From contig JAFSIR010000017.1 in the NCBI GenBank assembly GCA_017439715.1, positions 1-59,999 on the forward strand: a stretch of 59,999 nt of DNA. The letters are read 5' to 3'. Of the stretch, positions 10,737 through 18,605 are shown in pieces. Position numbers and translations under genes: made by a program. The DNA is from Clostridia bacterium. GTDB lineage: Bacteria > Bacillota > Clostridia > Christensenellales > QAND01. The notes under the pieces were generated by a model. That model saw only the letters and a list, made by a program, of their open reading frames with translations, was not told the DNA's origin and made no database searches. Position 1 is the first letter of the stretch; the number at the start of each line of letters is the position of its first letter.

Positions 10737-11246
10737 TTAGTTTTGCAGGATGATTTTTACGTTCTCGCTTTTTTCGCCTGCTTCCGTTCGAACGATCTCA
10801 AATATCTGGGCTGCGTTCGCTTCCGTCAGTTCTTTTTCGTTGTCCAGCACCACGTTCACAGAACCGGGTTTTACCGTAACAACGCACTCTTTATATCCCA
10901 GTGCCTTGACAAGCCCTTCGATATTGGCCTCAGTCTCAATTGCGGAGATCAGCGCCAGCTTTTGCTGCTCTGCATCCTTCTTTGTTGTAGGATCCGTTTT
11001 CTCACCGGTTATGATCGTGTCAAGATAGGCAATTTCTTCCGCCCGTGCAGCCGACCGATCCGTTCTGAACGATTGATAAAACGTTTGCGCCGTTTCGTTT
11101 TCTTGTTCTTCAGCCCCGGAAACGATCGACAACTGCTGCCCGCCGGTTTTTTTGCTCAAATAGTAATTGGCGGTCCCTGTAATGCAAAGCGCCAAAAACA
11201 GGCCCATAAAAATAAAGTGCTTTTTCTGCAGCTTTCCTTTTTTCAT
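10737..11246 (-). CDS. spoIIIAH: Stage III sporulation protein AH
   Basis: Mother-cell membrane protein that forms a ring and pairs with forespore SpoIIQ across the two membranes during engulfment. The 169 residues have one membrane segment (about 10-27, HFIFMGLFLALCITGTAN), a long charged helix with Q/E-rich linker, and a C-terminal YscJ/FliF-like ring domain (EANIEGLVKALGYKECVVTVKPG...). It is shorter than the 218-residue Bacillus protein, mostly in the linker. It is the last gene of the spoIIIA operon. Confidence 0.93.
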   Translation of the reverse strand: MKKGKLQKKHFIFMGLFLALCITGTANYYLSKKTGGQQLSIVSGAEEQENETAQTFYQSFRTDRSAARAEEIAYLDTIITGEKTDPTTKKDAEQQKLALISAIETEANIEGLVKALGYKECVVTVKPGSVNVVLDNEKELTEANAAQIFEIVRTEAGEKSENVKIILQN

Positions 11247-11259
11247 GCTGTTTCCTCCT

Positions 11260-11763
11260 TCATTTCATTTCAAACACTTCGATTTTGGAAGCCGGTATCC
11301 CAAGCGCTGTTTGCACCGCTTGAGAAATAGACAGTCTTACGCTGATCGATGATGCACCCTGCGCAACCACAATCACCCCCAATACCGCCGGCCTGTCTTT
11401 TCTCAACACCACCACTTCACCCTGCATGGCCGCTGGGCTTTGTGATTCGGTTTGGCTGCTTGACTGGCCATTGCCCGATATGCTTACGTTTCTGTCATAA
11501 GCCGGCACTTCTTCGCTTGAAGAAGCATACGTGATCATAACGGACACTTTGCCCACATCTTTGATCGCGCTCAGTGTTGCAACCAGATCTTCATGCTCCT
11601 TTGCCGCATCAAACGTGCCGTTTGCCGGCGCCGATGCCGCCATCAGCTCATTTTTATCCTCACTCGGCCAAAGCGCCAGCAATAACACCAGCAAGATGAT
11701 CCCCATTGCCGCCAGCTCTTTTTTGTGTGCAGTGATAAAGCCTGTGCAGCGAAGAATGTTCAT
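11260..11763 (-). CDS. spoIIIAG: Stage III sporulation protein AG
   Basis: Ring-forming channel component in the mother-cell membrane. The 167-residue protein has one membrane segment (AAMGIILLVLLLALW, about 20-35), a serine/glutamine-rich insertion in the middle, and the conserved ring-domain end RPAVLGVIVVAQGASSISVRLSISQAV followed by IEVFEMK. I choose ATG 11763, preceded by GAGAGGAGA at 6 nt; the upstream ATG (11781) lies where that SD must be. Bacillus SpoIIIAG is 229 residues, so this copy is compact. Confidence 0.92.
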   Translation of the reverse strand: MNILRCTGFITAHKKELAAMGIILLVLLLALWPSEDKNELMAASAPANGTFDAAKEHEDLVATLSAIKDVGKVSVMITYASSSEEVPAYDRNVSISGNGQSSSQTESQSPAAMQGEVVVLRKDRPAVLGVIVVAQGASSISVRLSISQAVQTALGIPASKIEVFEMK

Positions 11764-11798
11764 GGCTGTTCTCCTCTCCATCTTATTGATTTAGCGGA

Positions 11799-11975
11799 TC
11801 AATTATGTTTAAAGATCATAAAAAGCGGTTCGATCATGATCAGCACCAGCACGCAGTTTAAGATCATGCCGGAAATTCGCTTCAGATTGCCCGATGGCTG
11901 TGCCCATTCAAACAAACCTACGATGATTGAACCGGCAATTATTTTCATCACATACACATAAAACGCATTCTGCAT
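11799..11975 (-). CDS. spoIIIAF: SpoIIIAF reduced to its membrane domain
   Basis: A 58-codon gene between spoIIIAE and spoIIIAG, starting ATG 11975 with GAGGTG 6 nt upstream and only 3 nt after the spoIIIAE stop. Two hydrophobic segments (about residues 5-20 and 38-54) flank a polar turn QPSGNLKRISGM, the same layout as the first 60 residues of Bacillus SpoIIIAF (turn PSSSMQKYAKM, end of helix 2 MLTPIFKLFK versus MIEPLFMIFK here). The soluble ring-like C-terminal domain of about 150 residues is absent. There is no room for it before spoIIIAG and no frameshifted remnant. Confidence 0.85.
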   Translation of the reverse strand: MQNAFYVYVMKIIAGSIIVGLFEWAQPSGNLKRISGMILNCVLVLIMIEPLFMIFKHN

Positions 11976-11978
11976 GTT

Positions 11979-13151
11979 TCACCTCATCATTATGGTCATT
12001 GATCCGGCCCGTATCATCAGTGTGATCAAAATAAACATCATAGTCGCTACTGTCAGTACCGCCAGGTACATCAGTGTTAAAACATAGCTCAGCCGCTCCA
12101 TGCATTTGGCCAGATTTTTGTTGCCGAACGGCTCTATAACCATCCCTGCCAACCGCATCAACAGCGAAAGCGCCACGATGCGCAGCACCGGTGTTAACGC
12201 TGCACAGGCGATCAACAAAAGCCCTGCAACGCCCACCCCCTGTTTTACCACCAGTGAACAGGCGATTACTGTGTCTGCTGTGTCCGCCACCATGCCGCCA
12301 ATAATGGGCACCATCTTATCAATGGCATATTTTGTTGTTCTCAACCCGATCCCGTCCGTTACTGCGCTTGTCATTCCCTGCAGGGCTGTAATGCCCAGGA
12401 ATACAGTGAACACAAACGTGGTCATCCACTTTGCCGCCCACAATACCATGTCTGTTACTCGTTTTATCTGGATCTTATCCGATAAATGGTCTGCCAATGT
12501 CAAAACACCGCCCGCCAGAATAGCGGGCATGGTTATGCGTTTGATCATGGTCACGATCGATCCGGCCAAAAACGTCATCGCCGGTTTAAACACTCCGGCC
12601 GTAGCCGAAGCGCCTAACGCGGTCAACGTTGTCAGCATCACCGGGAACATGGATTCCAGAATGCCTGTCATGCTTATGATCGCATCGATACCGATCGAGA
12701 ACGCATTTTTCAGCAGTGAAACGGTCACAGTCATCGCCGCCAAGGCGCCTAAATACCGGCATACTTTTGCCGTGCCTCCACCCAATGTGTCGGCGCCCAA
12801 CAGGCCGAAAATACCGGTAATGGCGCACAAAACCACAATTTTAAAAAGAATGCCTGTATTGGACCGGAGCGATTCCATGATGGCCCGAAGCGCGCTTTGC
12901 GCAATGCTTTGGGCATCAAGCTGTATTTCTCCGTTTATGAAACCGATTATCCATTCCCTGATATTCTTAGCGTCAAACACCGCTCCTGTTATCGGGTCTT
13001 CCTTATCGATCGCAAGGCCACCCAGATCCATGGTATACAGATATTGCCTGATCTCTGCCGCAAGCTCATTATCCTGAACTTGCTCTGCCCGCACGCTGCG
13101 CGGCATTAAAACAACGCACAAACACACTAAAAGTGCCGCCAAATGTTTCAT
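11979..13151 (-). CDS. spoIIIAE: Stage III sporulation protein AE
   Basis: Polytopic membrane component of the SpoIIIA-SpoIIQ channel. The 390-residue protein begins with a signal-like segment (MKHLAALLVCLCVVLMPRSVRA), then about 100 polar residues, then seven or more membrane helices (from ILFKIVVLCAITGIFGLLG to YLAVLTVATMMFILITLMI). ATG 13151 overlaps the spoIIIAD stop as ATGA and has AGGTG at a good distance; a longer reading into spoIIIAD is unlikely. It is the largest membrane part of the complex and conserved in all spore formers. Confidence 0.94.
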   Translation of the reverse strand: MKHLAALLVCLCVVLMPRSVRAEQVQDNELAAEIRQYLYTMDLGGLAIDKEDPITGAVFDAKNIREWIIGFINGEIQLDAQSIAQSALRAIMESLRSNTGILFKIVVLCAITGIFGLLGADTLGGGTAKVCRYLGALAAMTVTVSLLKNAFSIGIDAIISMTGILESMFPVMLTTLTALGASATAGVFKPAMTFLAGSIVTMIKRITMPAILAGGVLTLADHLSDKIQIKRVTDMVLWAAKWMTTFVFTVFLGITALQGMTSAVTDGIGLRTTKYAIDKMVPIIGGMVADTADTVIACSLVVKQGVGVAGLLLIACAALTPVLRIVALSLLMRLAGMVIEPFGNKNLAKCMERLSYVLTLMYLAVLTVATMMFILITLMIRAGSMTIMMR

Positions 13152-13528
13152 ATCAACACCTGGCCAAGCTCTGTCAACAGCTTGATCGCCAGCGGCACAC
13201 ACAGCGACAGCAGGCAGATCTTTACTGCGGCTTCTATTTTCGCGGCAATGGCATTTTCCCCCGCATCCTTGCAGGTTTGTATCGTAAACTCTCCCAGATA
13301 CGCCAGCCCCGTAACTTTTATAGCAACGGTGATCATTCCATCATTGATGCTGTATCGGGCGGCGAGGGCCTCCATCGCAGCAAGCGCTTCCTTGAGAACA
13401 GGAACGGCCAGTACAAGCACCAGCGCACCGGTAGCAACCGCACACAGCAGGCCAAGCTCTGGCCTGTGCGTGCGCACAGTTAGCGAAAGTATAGCTCCGA
13501 TCACGGCAATCGCCAGTATCTTAATCAT
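13148..13528 (-). CDS. spoIIIAD: Stage III sporulation protein AD
   Basis: The 126-residue protein has several hydrophobic helices (KILAIAVIGAILSLTV, GLLCAVATGALVLVLAV, and a C-terminal KICLLSLCVPLAIKLL) typical of SpoIIIAD, a small membrane partner of SpoIIIAC. The ATG at 13528 directly follows the spoIIIAC stop; a TTG at 13534 that overlaps that stop (TTGA) is an equally possible start adding two residues. Confidence 0.93.
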   Translation of the reverse strand: MIKILAIAVIGAILSLTVRTHRPELGLLCAVATGALVLVLAVPVLKEALAAMEALAARYSINDGMITVAIKVTGLAYLGEFTIQTCKDAGENAIAAKIEAAVKICLLSLCVPLAIKLLTELGQVLI

Positions 13529-13530
13529 GA

Positions 13531-13728
13531 TCAATACAGGTTGAATACCTGTTTGATATTCTCAAACAGATTGCTTACAAGCTCGATCACCATAAACAGC
13601 ACGATCACCAGCCCAGCGATTGTTACCATCGTGGCCATATCCTCCCTGCCGGACCTGGATAAAAGCTGCGCCAGTACCGCAACCACGATCCCGATCGCCG
13701 CAATTCTGAACACAAGATCAACGCTCAT
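13531..13728 (-). CDS. spoIIIAC: Stage III sporulation protein AC
   Basis: A 65-residue protein with two membrane helices (LVFRIAAIGIVVAVLAQLL and MVTIAGLVIVLFMVIELV) separated by a charged turn SRSGREDMA, the standard SpoIIIAC pattern. It follows spoIIIAB by 12 nt and runs into spoIIIAD. Confidence 0.94.
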   Translation of the reverse strand: MSVDLVFRIAAIGIVVAVLAQLLSRSGREDMATMVTIAGLVIVLFMVIELVSNLFENIKQVFNLY

Positions 13729-13740
13729 ATTTTTCCGCCT

Positions 13741-14232
13741 CTATATGAAAAGTGTAACGATCAACACACCGCACAATAGGCTGATCGAACGGTATAACCG
13801 GGCGGACCGCATAAACTCTTTCTGCGACAACGCCGCTTCTTCCCCAGCATATTGATCAAAGCGCCTGAGTGCCTCTGTCATCGTTTTTCTGTCTTTTGAG
13901 AGTGATTGCCCGGTATAAGCAGCCAAAGCGATATCCCCGTGTTTCAGCGCTTCCCAAGTGCTGTTTAACCGCGCCTCCCAATCCGGCGAACCTGTTTTCA
14001 TGTCTGCCGCTAAGTTTGTAAACAAGTCTCTACCCCGTTTGGGCATTTCTTCCGCTAATTCTTTGAGGATCACCGGTATTTCAAGGCCTGTTGTCCTCGT
14101 TTTCTGTTCTATCTGCCGAAAAGCCTCTTGCAATTCTCGCAATGCCTTAGCTCGCTTCTGAGGATAAACGGCTTTTTCGTTTCCATAAACGAAGGAGAGC
14201 AGTATAATCATCAGGCTCAGCACTGCTTTCAT
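13741..14232 (-). CDS. spoIIIAB: Stage III sporulation protein AB
   Basis: The 163-residue protein has membrane helices at both ends (VLSLMIILLSFVYG, ISLLCGVLIVTLFI) and a helical cytoplasmic middle like type II secretion/GspF-type proteins (LQEAFRQIEQKTRTTG, PVILKELAEEMPKRG). With the ATPase SpoIIIAA it is thought to drive the channel. Its ATG overlaps the spoIIIAA stop as ATGA. Confidence 0.93.
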   Translation of the reverse strand: MKAVLSLMIILLSFVYGNEKAVYPQKRAKALRELQEAFRQIEQKTRTTGLEIPVILKELAEEMPKRGRDLFTNLAADMKTGSPDWEARLNSTWEALKHGDIALAAYTGQSLSKDRKTMTEALRRFDQYAGEEAALSQKEFMRSARLYRSISLLCGVLIVTLFI

Positions 14233-15182
14233 TTCAAATCACGCTGCCATATAATTCTGCCGTTTTTATCGATAATGCTTTGCACGTTTCCCGGCGTTCC
14301 GCCAAGCTGCACAAAGCGTTCAAACGTTTGATTCTCCGCTATTTGCTTGAATGATGGCCTTTGCATCAGCTGCTCAGCGCTGGCGGCGTGCGCAGTTGCC
14401 AGCAGCGCAACGCCCATGTTGGCTGCTTCCATTGCCGTTTTCACGTCTCTTTCATCCCCCAACTCATCCAGGGCGATCACCTGCGGCCCCAGCGCGCGCA
14501 AAGCACGCAGCATACCCTCCCTTTTGGGCCATCCATCCAAAACATCCGTTCGAAGGCCAATATCCATTTGCGGTTCGCCGGCGTAACAAGCCGCGATCTC
14601 ACTCCGCTCGTCTATAAGGCACACCCGCATCCCTTCCGTTCCGCTTTCTCCGTTGGAAACAGCGCGCACTATATCGCGCAGCATCGTTGTTTTGCCCATC
14701 ATAGGCGGGGACACGATCATTGTGCTGCAAAGCCTGTTTTTCTCCATCAGCCACGGAAGTATGTGCTGTGCGCAGCCTTTTATCTGCCTTGCAATGCGGA
14801 TGCACAGCCCTGAGCAACGGCCGATATTCAACCGCCCGTCCTGTTCCATCACTGCCGGGCCGCTCAGGCCAACGCGATGGCCGCCCTGTAATGTGATAAA
14901 CCCGTTCCCAATCTGCGCTTCATAGGCATAAACGGAATGCCGGCATAGTGCTGAAAACGTTTCTTCAACCATTTTTGCGTCCATGATAAATGCTGCAATG
15001 GGTGACCGGCTCCATTCGCCGTTAACATCTATAAACCAATCGTGCTTTCCCCGAACCGCCATCATCGGCTTTCCTGCGCGGATCCTGATCTCATCCGCGC
15101 GCTCCAGGCTGTTTTGCCGTTCCAGCAAACAGCAAAGCTCTTTGGGCAGCAATTCTCTGATCCCCTGTAAGGCCCTTTGCAT
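14229..15182 (-). CDS. spoIIIAA: Stage III sporulation protein AA (ATPase)
   Basis: Secretion-type ATPase of the sporulation channel. The 317-residue protein has the P-loop SPPMMGKTTMLRD, the segment CLIDERSEIAACYAG, and the Walker B VIALDELGDERDV. The start ATG 15182 has GAGGGGA 7 nt upstream; the open frame extends to 15380 but that part crosses the efp terminator and reads unrelated sequence. It is the first gene of the eight-gene operon, and a sigma-E-like promoter lies 25-53 bp before the start codon. Confidence 0.94.
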   Translation of the reverse strand: MQRALQGIRELLPKELCCLLERQNSLERADEIRIRAGKPMMAVRGKHDWFIDVNGEWSRSPIAAFIMDAKMVEETFSALCRHSVYAYEAQIGNGFITLQGGHRVGLSGPAVMEQDGRLNIGRCSGLCIRIARQIKGCAQHILPWLMEKNRLCSTMIVSPPMMGKTTMLRDIVRAVSNGESGTEGMRVCLIDERSEIAACYAGEPQMDIGLRTDVLDGWPKREGMLRALRALGPQVIALDELGDERDVKTAMEAANMGVALLATAHAASAEQLMQRPSFKQIAENQTFERFVQLGGTPGNVQSIIDKNGRIIWQRDLK

Positions 15183-15206
15183 ACGCTCGTCCCCTCTTTC
15201 CCTTCG

Positions 15207-15235
15207 AATATATGTTTTGTCCGTGCACTTTATCA
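15207..15235 (-). promoter_or_regulatory. Candidate sigma-E promoter of the spoIIIA operon
   Basis: On the minus strand TGATAAA (15229-15235) and CATATATT (15207-15214) are 14 bp apart. The sigma-E -10 consensus is CATACAnT and the spacing fits; the -35 match is partial (ATA core). spoIIIA is a sigma-E operon in Bacillus, so position and family knowledge agree. Confidence 0.6.
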
Positions 15236-15247
15236 CCGTTGGAGAAA

Positions 15248-15279
15248 ATAAAAAAAAGCCGTTTTTCAAACGGCTTTTT
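15248..15279 (-). terminator. Rho-independent terminator of efp
   Basis: AAAAAGCCGTTT (15253-15264) pairs with AAACGGCTTTTT (15268-15279) around a 3-nt loop; on the minus strand the stem is followed by a run of eight T. It ends the efp transcript just before the spoIIIA promoter. Confidence 0.93.
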
Positions 15280-15291
15280 CTCAGTTGGTTA

Positions 15292-15849
15292 TTAGACGCG
15301 GGACATATATTCACCGGTTCTGGTGTCAATGCGCAGCACATCGCCTTCGTTAACAAACAGCGGCACGGCAACCACTGCACCCGTTTCCAACGTGGCAGGC
15401 TTGGTCGCGCCCGTGGCAGTATCGCCTTTCACGCCGGGGTCGGTCTGCGCAACCGCCAGTTCCACAAAGTTCGGCGCTTCCACGGAGAAGGCCTGTCCTT
15501 TAAAGAACTTCACTTCCACATCCGTGTTCTCTTTCACGTACGGCATTGCATCGGCAACAAGATCTTCATTGAGCGGAAGCTGTTCGTAAGTTTCCTTATC
15601 CATGAAGTAGTACAGACCACCGTCATTATAAAGATACTCCATAGTCTTGGTCTCAACATGAGCACGCGGATAACGCTCGGTCGGGTTGAACGTGCGTTCC
15701 AAAACGTTCCCCTGCACCACGTTTTTGATCTTGGTGCGCACAAACGCAGCACCCTTGCCCGGTTTTACATGCTGGAAATCCACGATCACCCAAACCTGAC
15801 CGTCAATCTCGATCGTTTGGCCTTTTCTAAATTCGCCTGCAGACAGCAT
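15292..15849 (-). CDS. efp: Elongation factor P
   Basis: Translation factor that relieves ribosome stalling at polyproline. The 185 residues show three beta-barrel domains; the loop KPGKG (29-33) carries Lys32, the usual modification site. The conserved segments [13 protein letters not shown] at the start and [20 protein letters not shown] at the end match the family length. It follows the M24 peptidase gene by 15 nt, an order (yqhT-efp) also seen in Bacillus. Confidence 0.97.
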
Positions 15850-17798: not shown

Positions 17799-17827
17799 AT
17801 GATACTTGATTCAGCCCCGCCTTTCAA
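17799..17827 (-). promoter_or_regulatory. Sigma-A promoter inside the sigK end, predicted leaderless
   Basis: Minus-strand TTGAAA (17822-17827), a 17-bp spacer and TATCAT (17799-17804). Seven bases past the -10 is the A of ATG 17792, so the mRNA for the endonuclease-like gene, the M24 peptidase and efp could begin exactly at its first codon. No SD is visible. The -35 lies inside sigK codons. Confidence 0.55.
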
Positions 17828-18524
17828 TACCATCCGTGTAAATCTGCATCGCTTTGTTGAGTTTTATAAGCGCTTTTGTTTCGATTCGCGACACATAAGA
17901 GCGTGAAATGCCCAGTTTTTTGGCGATCAGCCGCTGCGTTTGGCAAGGGCCGCCGGCAAGCCCGTATCTGAGTTCTATAATCATTTTCTCGCGCGGGGCA
18001 AGTGATGTTTCGATCGCTTCATACAACCGCTTCACCGACATTTTGGTTTGTACCTGTTCATCCACATCCGCATCAAGCGATGGCAGGATGTCTGCCAGCT
18101 GCATTTTGTTTCCGTTTTTATCCGTGTTCACAACTTCACTCATTGCCACTTCGCTTCGCATCTTTTTCTCTGCCCGAACAGACATGAGAATCTCATTTTC
18201 TATGCAGCGGGCCGCATATGAGACCAGCGATTTTCCCTTCTCTGCATCAAAGGTTTGAACCGCTTTGATCAGCCCAATGGTGCCAATCGAGATCAGATCA
18301 TCCACATCTCTGCCATTTACCGCATATTTTTTGCAGATGTGCGCCACCAAACGAAGGTTGTGCTCAATTAACGTATTTCGCGCTTGTTCATCCTGCTTTT
18401 TCAGCCTTTCAAGCGCATCTTTTTCTTCTTCCTTTGTCAGCGGCCTTGGAAACGATTGCCCGCCCAGCACGCTGCCGGAAAGCAAGACCCATTGGCTCAG
18501 CCACATCAACGCAGACAAAATCAT
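17811..18524 (-). CDS. sigK: RNA polymerase sporulation sigma factor SigK (pro-sigma-K)
   Basis: Late mother-cell sigma factor for spore coat and cortex genes. The 237-residue protein opens with a hydrophobic pro-sequence of about 20 residues (MILSALMWLSQWVLLSG), then SFPRPLTKEEEK as in Bacillus, region 2 (LIEHNLRLVAHICKKY, DDLISIGTIGLIKAVQTFD) and region 4 helix-turn-helix (RLIAKKLGISRSYVSRIETKAL). The reading frame is unbroken, so no skin element divides it. ATG 18524 has GGGGGG 7 nt upstream; the longer frame to 18578 crosses toward the mltG terminator. No clear sigma-E or sigma-K promoter was found in the short leader. Confidence 0.95.
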   Translation of the reverse strand: MILSALMWLSQWVLLSGSVLGGQSFPRPLTKEEEKDALERLKKQDEQARNTLIEHNLRLVAHICKKYAVNGRDVDDLISIGTIGLIKAVQTFDAEKGKSLVSYAARCIENEILMSVRAEKKMRSEVAMSEVVNTDKNGNKMQLADILPSLDADVDEQVQTKMSVKRLYEAIETSLAPREKMIIELRYGLAGGPCQTQRLIAKKLGISRSYVSRIETKALIKLNKAMQIYTDGIERRG

Positions 18525-18576
18525 TCTATATCCCCCCACGCAAAGAGGATACTCTGCACCGATCGGATCCATGAAC

Positions 18577-18605
18577 AAAAATTCCCGGCCGAAGCCGGGA
18601 ATTTT
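18577..18605 (-). terminator. Rho-independent terminator after mltG
   Basis: AAAATTCCCGGC (18578-18589) pairs over 12 bp with GCCGGGAATTTT (18594-18605); the loop reads TTCG on the minus strand, a very stable tetraloop, and five T follow. It closes the long comM-to-mltG chain and insulates sigK. Confidence 0.93.

Follow-up and report, generated by a model that had tools for sequence, protein, structure and literature searches.

A hairpin-only variant of SpoIIIAF recurs in the Christensenella group

Depictions of the SpoIIIA-SpoIIQ channel, which feeds the developing spore, commonly show SpoIIIAF as an additional ring in the stack. In its accepted topology, the turn of its membrane hairpin lies in the cytoplasm and both termini lie outside. 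In SpoIIIAG, the cup of the 30-mer ring is built by a long insertion in the ring motif. A comparative survey listed spoIIIAF among the genes of all spore-formers and reported it absent in several non-spore-forming Clostridia (PMC3533761). In Planococcaceae, spoIIIAF was reported missing along with spoIIIAA, spoIIIAB, and partly spoIIIAD (PMC7924749). The spoIIIAF analyzed here belongs to neither category: it is present in an otherwise complete operon and encodes 58 residues, which make it a hairpin-only member of the SpoIIIAF lineage rather than a canonical SpoIIIAF. We found no description of such a form in the open-access literature searched.

The spoIIIA operon and its short spoIIIAF

The window, meaning the whole stretch of DNA analyzed, is an entire 60-kb contig of a 1.22-Mb MAG from a gut-type bacterium; the MAG is 81% complete. 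Family profiles place a complete spoIIIAA-AH operon in its usual order on the minus strand (Table 1). SpoIIIAG is intact and matches the SpoIIIAG ring of 5WC3 (E 5e-5). An intact SigK-type gene lies ~2.4 kb upstream of spoIIIAA, and sigma-factor matches are similarly placed near spoIIIA in genomes G001, G002, and G003.

Table 1. Features of the spoIIIA region in the window
Feature	Position	Strand	Basis and remarks
spoIIIAH (RBM protein)	10737..11246	(-)	Pfam SpoIIIAH E 3e-27
spoIIIAG, single membrane anchor and RBM with its insertion	11260..11763	(-)	TIGR02830 E 2e-19; alternative start 11781
spoIIIAF, 58 aa, two-helix (hairpin-only) form	11799..11975	(-)	ORF reading, family profiles, and AlphaFold2 model
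Approximate spoIIIAF ribosome-binding region	11979..11988	(-)	AGGTGA-like SD ATGATGAGGTGAAACATG / ATGAGGTGA, overlaps spoIIIAE stop codon
spoIIIAE	11979..13151	(-)	Pfam Spore_III_AE E 2e-69; start probably 13151, longest ORF from 13202
spoIIIAD	13148..13534	(-)	TIGR02849 E 2.5e-17
spoIIIAC	13531..13728	(-)	TIGR02848 E 2.5e-26
spoIIIAB	13741..14232	(-)	Pfam Spore_III_AB E 8e-19
spoIIIAA ATPase (ORF; true start inside)	14229..15380	(-)	TIGR02858 E 1e-89
sigK-type sporulation sigma factor	17811..18578	(-)	NF004471 SigK 296.6 bits, cut-off 252

The spoIIIAF frame sits between spoIIIAE and spoIIIAG. It opens with an ATG at 11975, 3 nt after the spoIIIAE stop (11979), and its stop is at 11799. From there, 35 nt lead to spoIIIAG if that gene starts at the ATG at 11763, and 17 nt if it starts at 11781; the former, behind the better SD GGAGAGGAG, is the likelier of the two candidate starts.

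SpoIIIAF was the top family match for the 58-residue product in both profile libraries, with approximately the first 50 profile positions covered. In Pfam Spore_III_AF (PF09581), residues 17 to 58 aligned to positions 5 to 46 of 185 (E 2e-4, 21.8 bits), and residues 7 to 58 were matched by TIGR02896 (E 4e-5, 24 bits). The curated cut-offs of the two families (28.3 and 61.3, respectively) were not reached, as is expected for a fragment of a profile. Because the operon order is conventional and spoIIIAA, -AB, -AC, -AD, -AE, -AG, and -AH are intact, the identity of the gene is beyond doubt. The product has a two-helix membrane hairpin with the conserved turn at its N terminus, and an AlphaFold2 model, built from a 25-sequence alignment of short forms, places the helices at residues 4 to 25 and 30 to 57 (mean pLDDT, 90). 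Across short forms, the mean charge is +1.4 in the turn versus -0.25 after helix 2; by the positive-inside rule, the turn would be cytoplasmic and both ends outside. These results agree with the preliminary description, which had placed a 58-residue gene in this slot, behind an SD at correct spacing, and had aligned it to the two-helix start of SpoIIIAF.

Absent from the product are the ring-building (RBM) domain of SpoIIIAF and its linker. A profile of full-length SpoIIIAF from Clostridia gave as its best match 6DCS, the SpoIIIAF soluble domain, over positions 97 to 202 at a marginal E of 0.028; a single full-length sequence gave no match in the PDB, so that a profile was required. In the full-length alignment, the 58-residue product stops before column 60, upstream of the 6DCS-matching part. 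No frame of the window gave a credible match to profiles of the RBM part, nor did the assembly as a whole, and a search for a second or full-length spoIIIAF elsewhere in the assembly returned none. The earlier claim that the soluble ring domain is missing therefore extends from the gene to all frames of the window and to the assembly.

Distribution and repeated loss of the ring-building domain

We read SpoIIIAF at the spoIIIA locus of ~265 non-redundant genomes, drawn from the window's order, from its class, and from named records. In each, the sequence following spoIIIAE was taken and the residues past helix 2 were counted. Loci were reached through a SpoIIIAE search, and the next gene was then read stop to stop. 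Gene calling gated on start codons and SpoIIIAG misses eight SpoIIIAF genes, seven of them short or intermediate and one full-length by frame reading, and the 58-residue product as a query against genome contigs found no relative, being too short and too diverged. Loci truncated at a contig end were excluded from the counts, as were L211 and L300, whose genes are frameshifted. The order of the window source was taken as the Christensenella group, neighboring records bearing the name Christensenella; the nearest named record, Candidatus Allochristensenella caecavium (L113), belongs to the window's family.

Among the 100 non-redundant loci of the Christensenella group, 20 encode at most 25 residues past helix 2, 12 encode 26 to 60, and 68 are full-length. 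SpoIIIAF is thus reduced to a hairpin or a hairpin plus stub at 32 of 100 sampled loci, in 13 of 25 sampled families; sampling was nonrandom, with regions taken from the stronger SpoIIIAE matches, and such percentages describe the sample only. This comparison of SpoIIIAF lengths across Clostridia had been proposed in the preliminary description, and outside the order it gave 96 full-length and 2 reduced forms at 98 loci of the same class. Both exceptions (L290, with 3 residues past helix 2, and L293, with 28) are directly followed by spoIIIAG. Within the window's family, two other sampled genera also have short forms of 55 aa (L003) and 57 aa (L004), and family f4 alone contains short, stub, and full forms. 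Tails of 0 to 55 residues bridge the short and full proteins. Short SpoIIIAF is a recurrent pattern and not an oddity of one genome.

Assuming loss without regain, the SpoIIIAE tree requires at least 12 separate losses of the domain. Placing all reduced forms in one clade was rejected (AU test, p = 0.0003), as was forcing full-length rows out of the reduced clade (p 1.6e-7); the tested groups were named after the tree was seen, which makes these p-values somewhat flattering. In a 49-row tree, the full-length genus g88 (Candidatus Limiplasma) is nested in the reduced clade with strong support. Two cases of loss are independent of deep branching, namely, L080 in family f6 and L016 and L017 in a well-supported full-length group. 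The SpoIIIAF tail of Candidatus Limiplasma (L165) is predicted to form an alpha-beta-beta-alpha-beta fold, for which 6DCS is the best structural match (probability 0.99, E 0.025), with the ring motifs of EscJ and FliF close behind (matches overall, E 0.025 to 0.07, probability 0.9 to 0.99). Because this tail is predicted to fold as an RBM with 6DCS as its top match, regain by an unrelated domain is unlikely.

A further lineage on the SpoIIIAE tree, the isolated L140, has a full-length tail of 126 residues and stands beside hairpin-only relatives.

Constraint on the hairpin and alternative explanations

The closest pairs of short spoIIIAF genes have dN/dS values of 0.13 (L072/L105), 0.10 (L131/L137), 0.20 (L118/L120), and 0.32 (L134/L147); these are relatives' genes, the window gene being without a close enough relative in the sample. 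Values for distant pairs range from 0.3 to 1.2, with synonymous changes poorly estimated in such GC-rich genes. Tail length is constant per clade: the groups concerned have 3 to 8 members and tails of 4, 5, 18, or 22 residues. The turn motif L-P-x-G-x-x-[KR]-[KR] is retained in short forms (its P in 87% of short versus 93% of full forms, its G in 80% versus 64%), and a proline after helix 2 is common to both. The 58-residue frame is a real short gene and not a decayed one; the preliminary description had leaned that way, and the recurrence of the short form at this operon position in dozens of independent assemblies, the clade-stable lengths, and dN/dS values of 0.10 to 0.32 bear it out. We consider it probable that this is a genuine, functional spoIIIAF that lost its RBM domain by 3' shortening and kept its hairpin as a part of the membrane platform, with the RBM domain a droppable accessory.

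The domain could instead have been replaced rather than dispensed with, its ring function being supplied in trans by a nonhomologous or too diverged protein. RBM domains diverge fast, and SpoIIIAG and SpoIIIAH, themselves RBM proteins, could fill the SpoIIIAF position. A profile of the SpoIIIAF tail found 8 of 9 full-length control genomes, at their spoIIIAF locus, and missed the ninth. The same profile, however, gave no match at E < 0.008 to a detached SpoIIIAF-type RBM in 19 reduced genomes, and the slot between spoIIIAE and spoIIIAG holds no other gene, making replacement unlikely.

We regard it as improbable that the window organism has lost sporulation and that its spoIIIAF is the decaying remains of a gene in a relict operon. 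The genome is small (1.22 Mb), and its MAG (G000) gave no match to SigF, SigG, SpoIVA, or SpoVAD; at 81% completeness, the chance that three separate loci are missing by random gaps is near 1%. The same MAG has eight intact spoIIIA ORFs together with SigK, Spo0A, and SpoIID, and its incompleteness counts against reading absences as losses. Moreover, the short form is shared with the two genera of the window's family mentioned above. Both carry SigG, SpoIVA, and SpoVAD, and the shortening is therefore older than any local loss of sporulation. More broadly, SpoIVA, SpoVAD, and SigG-like genes were found in 18 of 18 genomes with short or intermediate SpoIIIAF that are at least 90% complete, including G036 (3 contigs, 4.2 Mb). 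The window organism may possibly have lost sporulation, or its MAG may merely be incomplete. The proposal in the preliminary description that the periplasmic domain is dispensable accordingly stands in part: it is supported for the lineage group, by comparison rather than experiment, in that short-form relatives keep late sporulation genes, and for the window organism itself sporulation is unproven.

Scores under the curated family cut-offs would also be expected if an unrelated small membrane protein had taken the place of spoIIIAF in the operon. This is very improbable, as SpoIIIAF is the best match in both libraries, aligned from the N terminus, full-length proteins have the same turn motif and proline after helix 2, and the graded series of tails joins the short and full forms. 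An assembly or sequencing frameshift truncating a full-length gene, of which real cases exist in the sample (in L300 the next frame still encodes the remainder of the domain, in contrast to the clean short forms, and L211 carries a frameshift), is hardly credible here, since the 17 to 35 nt before spoIIIAG are too few for a frameshifted remainder and, as first noted, contain no remnant in any frame, and since an indel in a single assembly cannot explain identical lengths in independent assemblies of related genera.

Proposed role and comparison with described systems

If the gene is a functional spoIIIAF shortened at its 3' end, the shortening would have removed the extracytoplasmic RBM and left the N-terminal hairpin with its cytoplasmic turn. 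The hairpin would pack beside SpoIIIAE, a contact we infer, and beside SpoIIIAB, SpoIIIAC, and SpoIIIAD in the mother-cell membrane platform, helping to hold the platform together. The periplasmic conduit of the SpoIIIA-SpoIIQ channel would be formed by the SpoIIIAG and SpoIIIAH rings, with the SpoIIIAF RBM as an accessory that the Christensenella group has discarded repeatedly. The hairpin alone would then be sufficient for channel function. In B. subtilis, SpoIIIAF copurifies with SpoIIIAE, SpoIIIAG, and SpoIIIAD from sporulating membranes, in agreement with a role in the membrane platform, and low levels of SpoIIIAF suffice (PMC2703783). Mean-field coevolution of SpoIIIAF was computed with SpoIIIAE and SpoIIIAG. 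The signal with SpoIIIAE was above that of shuffled pairings, a result that shared ancestry alone gives, and the top pairs fell at alignment edges; we give it no weight as evidence of contact.

A wider reading, which we hold only tentatively, is that the conserved job of SpoIIIAF lies in the membrane, where the hairpin alone may be a working subunit, with its ring outside the conserved conduit. The channel of the Christensenella group would then be a pared-down one, with the SpoIIIAF ring lost at least 12 times and some SpoIIIAG proteins without most of the cup insertion.

In many lineages (e.g., L290, L088, L080, L013, and L137), the insertion in the SpoIIIAG RBM is down to ~10 to 30 residues. 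A shortened insertion was found at 32 of 50 loci with reduced SpoIIIAF versus 8 of 60 with full-length SpoIIIAF, a difference that is not significant on 6 independent pairs.

That the RBM has been lost in nature time and again, while the hairpin persists, shows on which half of SpoIIIAF general selection acts: selection would maintain the membrane part, and the outer ring domain would be dispensable. It also bears on annotation. Curated models score hairpin-only SpoIIIAF under their cut-offs, so annotation and presence/absence surveys record spoIIIAF as missing, and profile-based sporulation surveys would mis-score it in many probable gut spore-formers.

Hairpin-only SpoIIIAF is like the B. 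subtilis protein (PF09581, TIGR02896; 6DCS) in its position between spoIIIAE and spoIIIAG, its two-helix hairpin, its turn, and its prolines, and unlike it in having neither the linker nor the soluble RBM (profile positions 97 to 202, the part in 6DCS). The full-length SpoIIIAF of the Christensenella group, as in Candidatus Limiplasma pullicola (L165), shares the operon and the hairpin and is nested among short forms, but it retains a 105-residue tail with a predicted RBM fold, for which the window protein has no counterpart. Family searches would miss the window gene, and spoIIIAF likewise went unfound in the published absences (PMC7924749, PMC3533761); in those cases the gene is reported as missing, whereas here the operon is complete but for the reduction of spoIIIAF to its hairpin.
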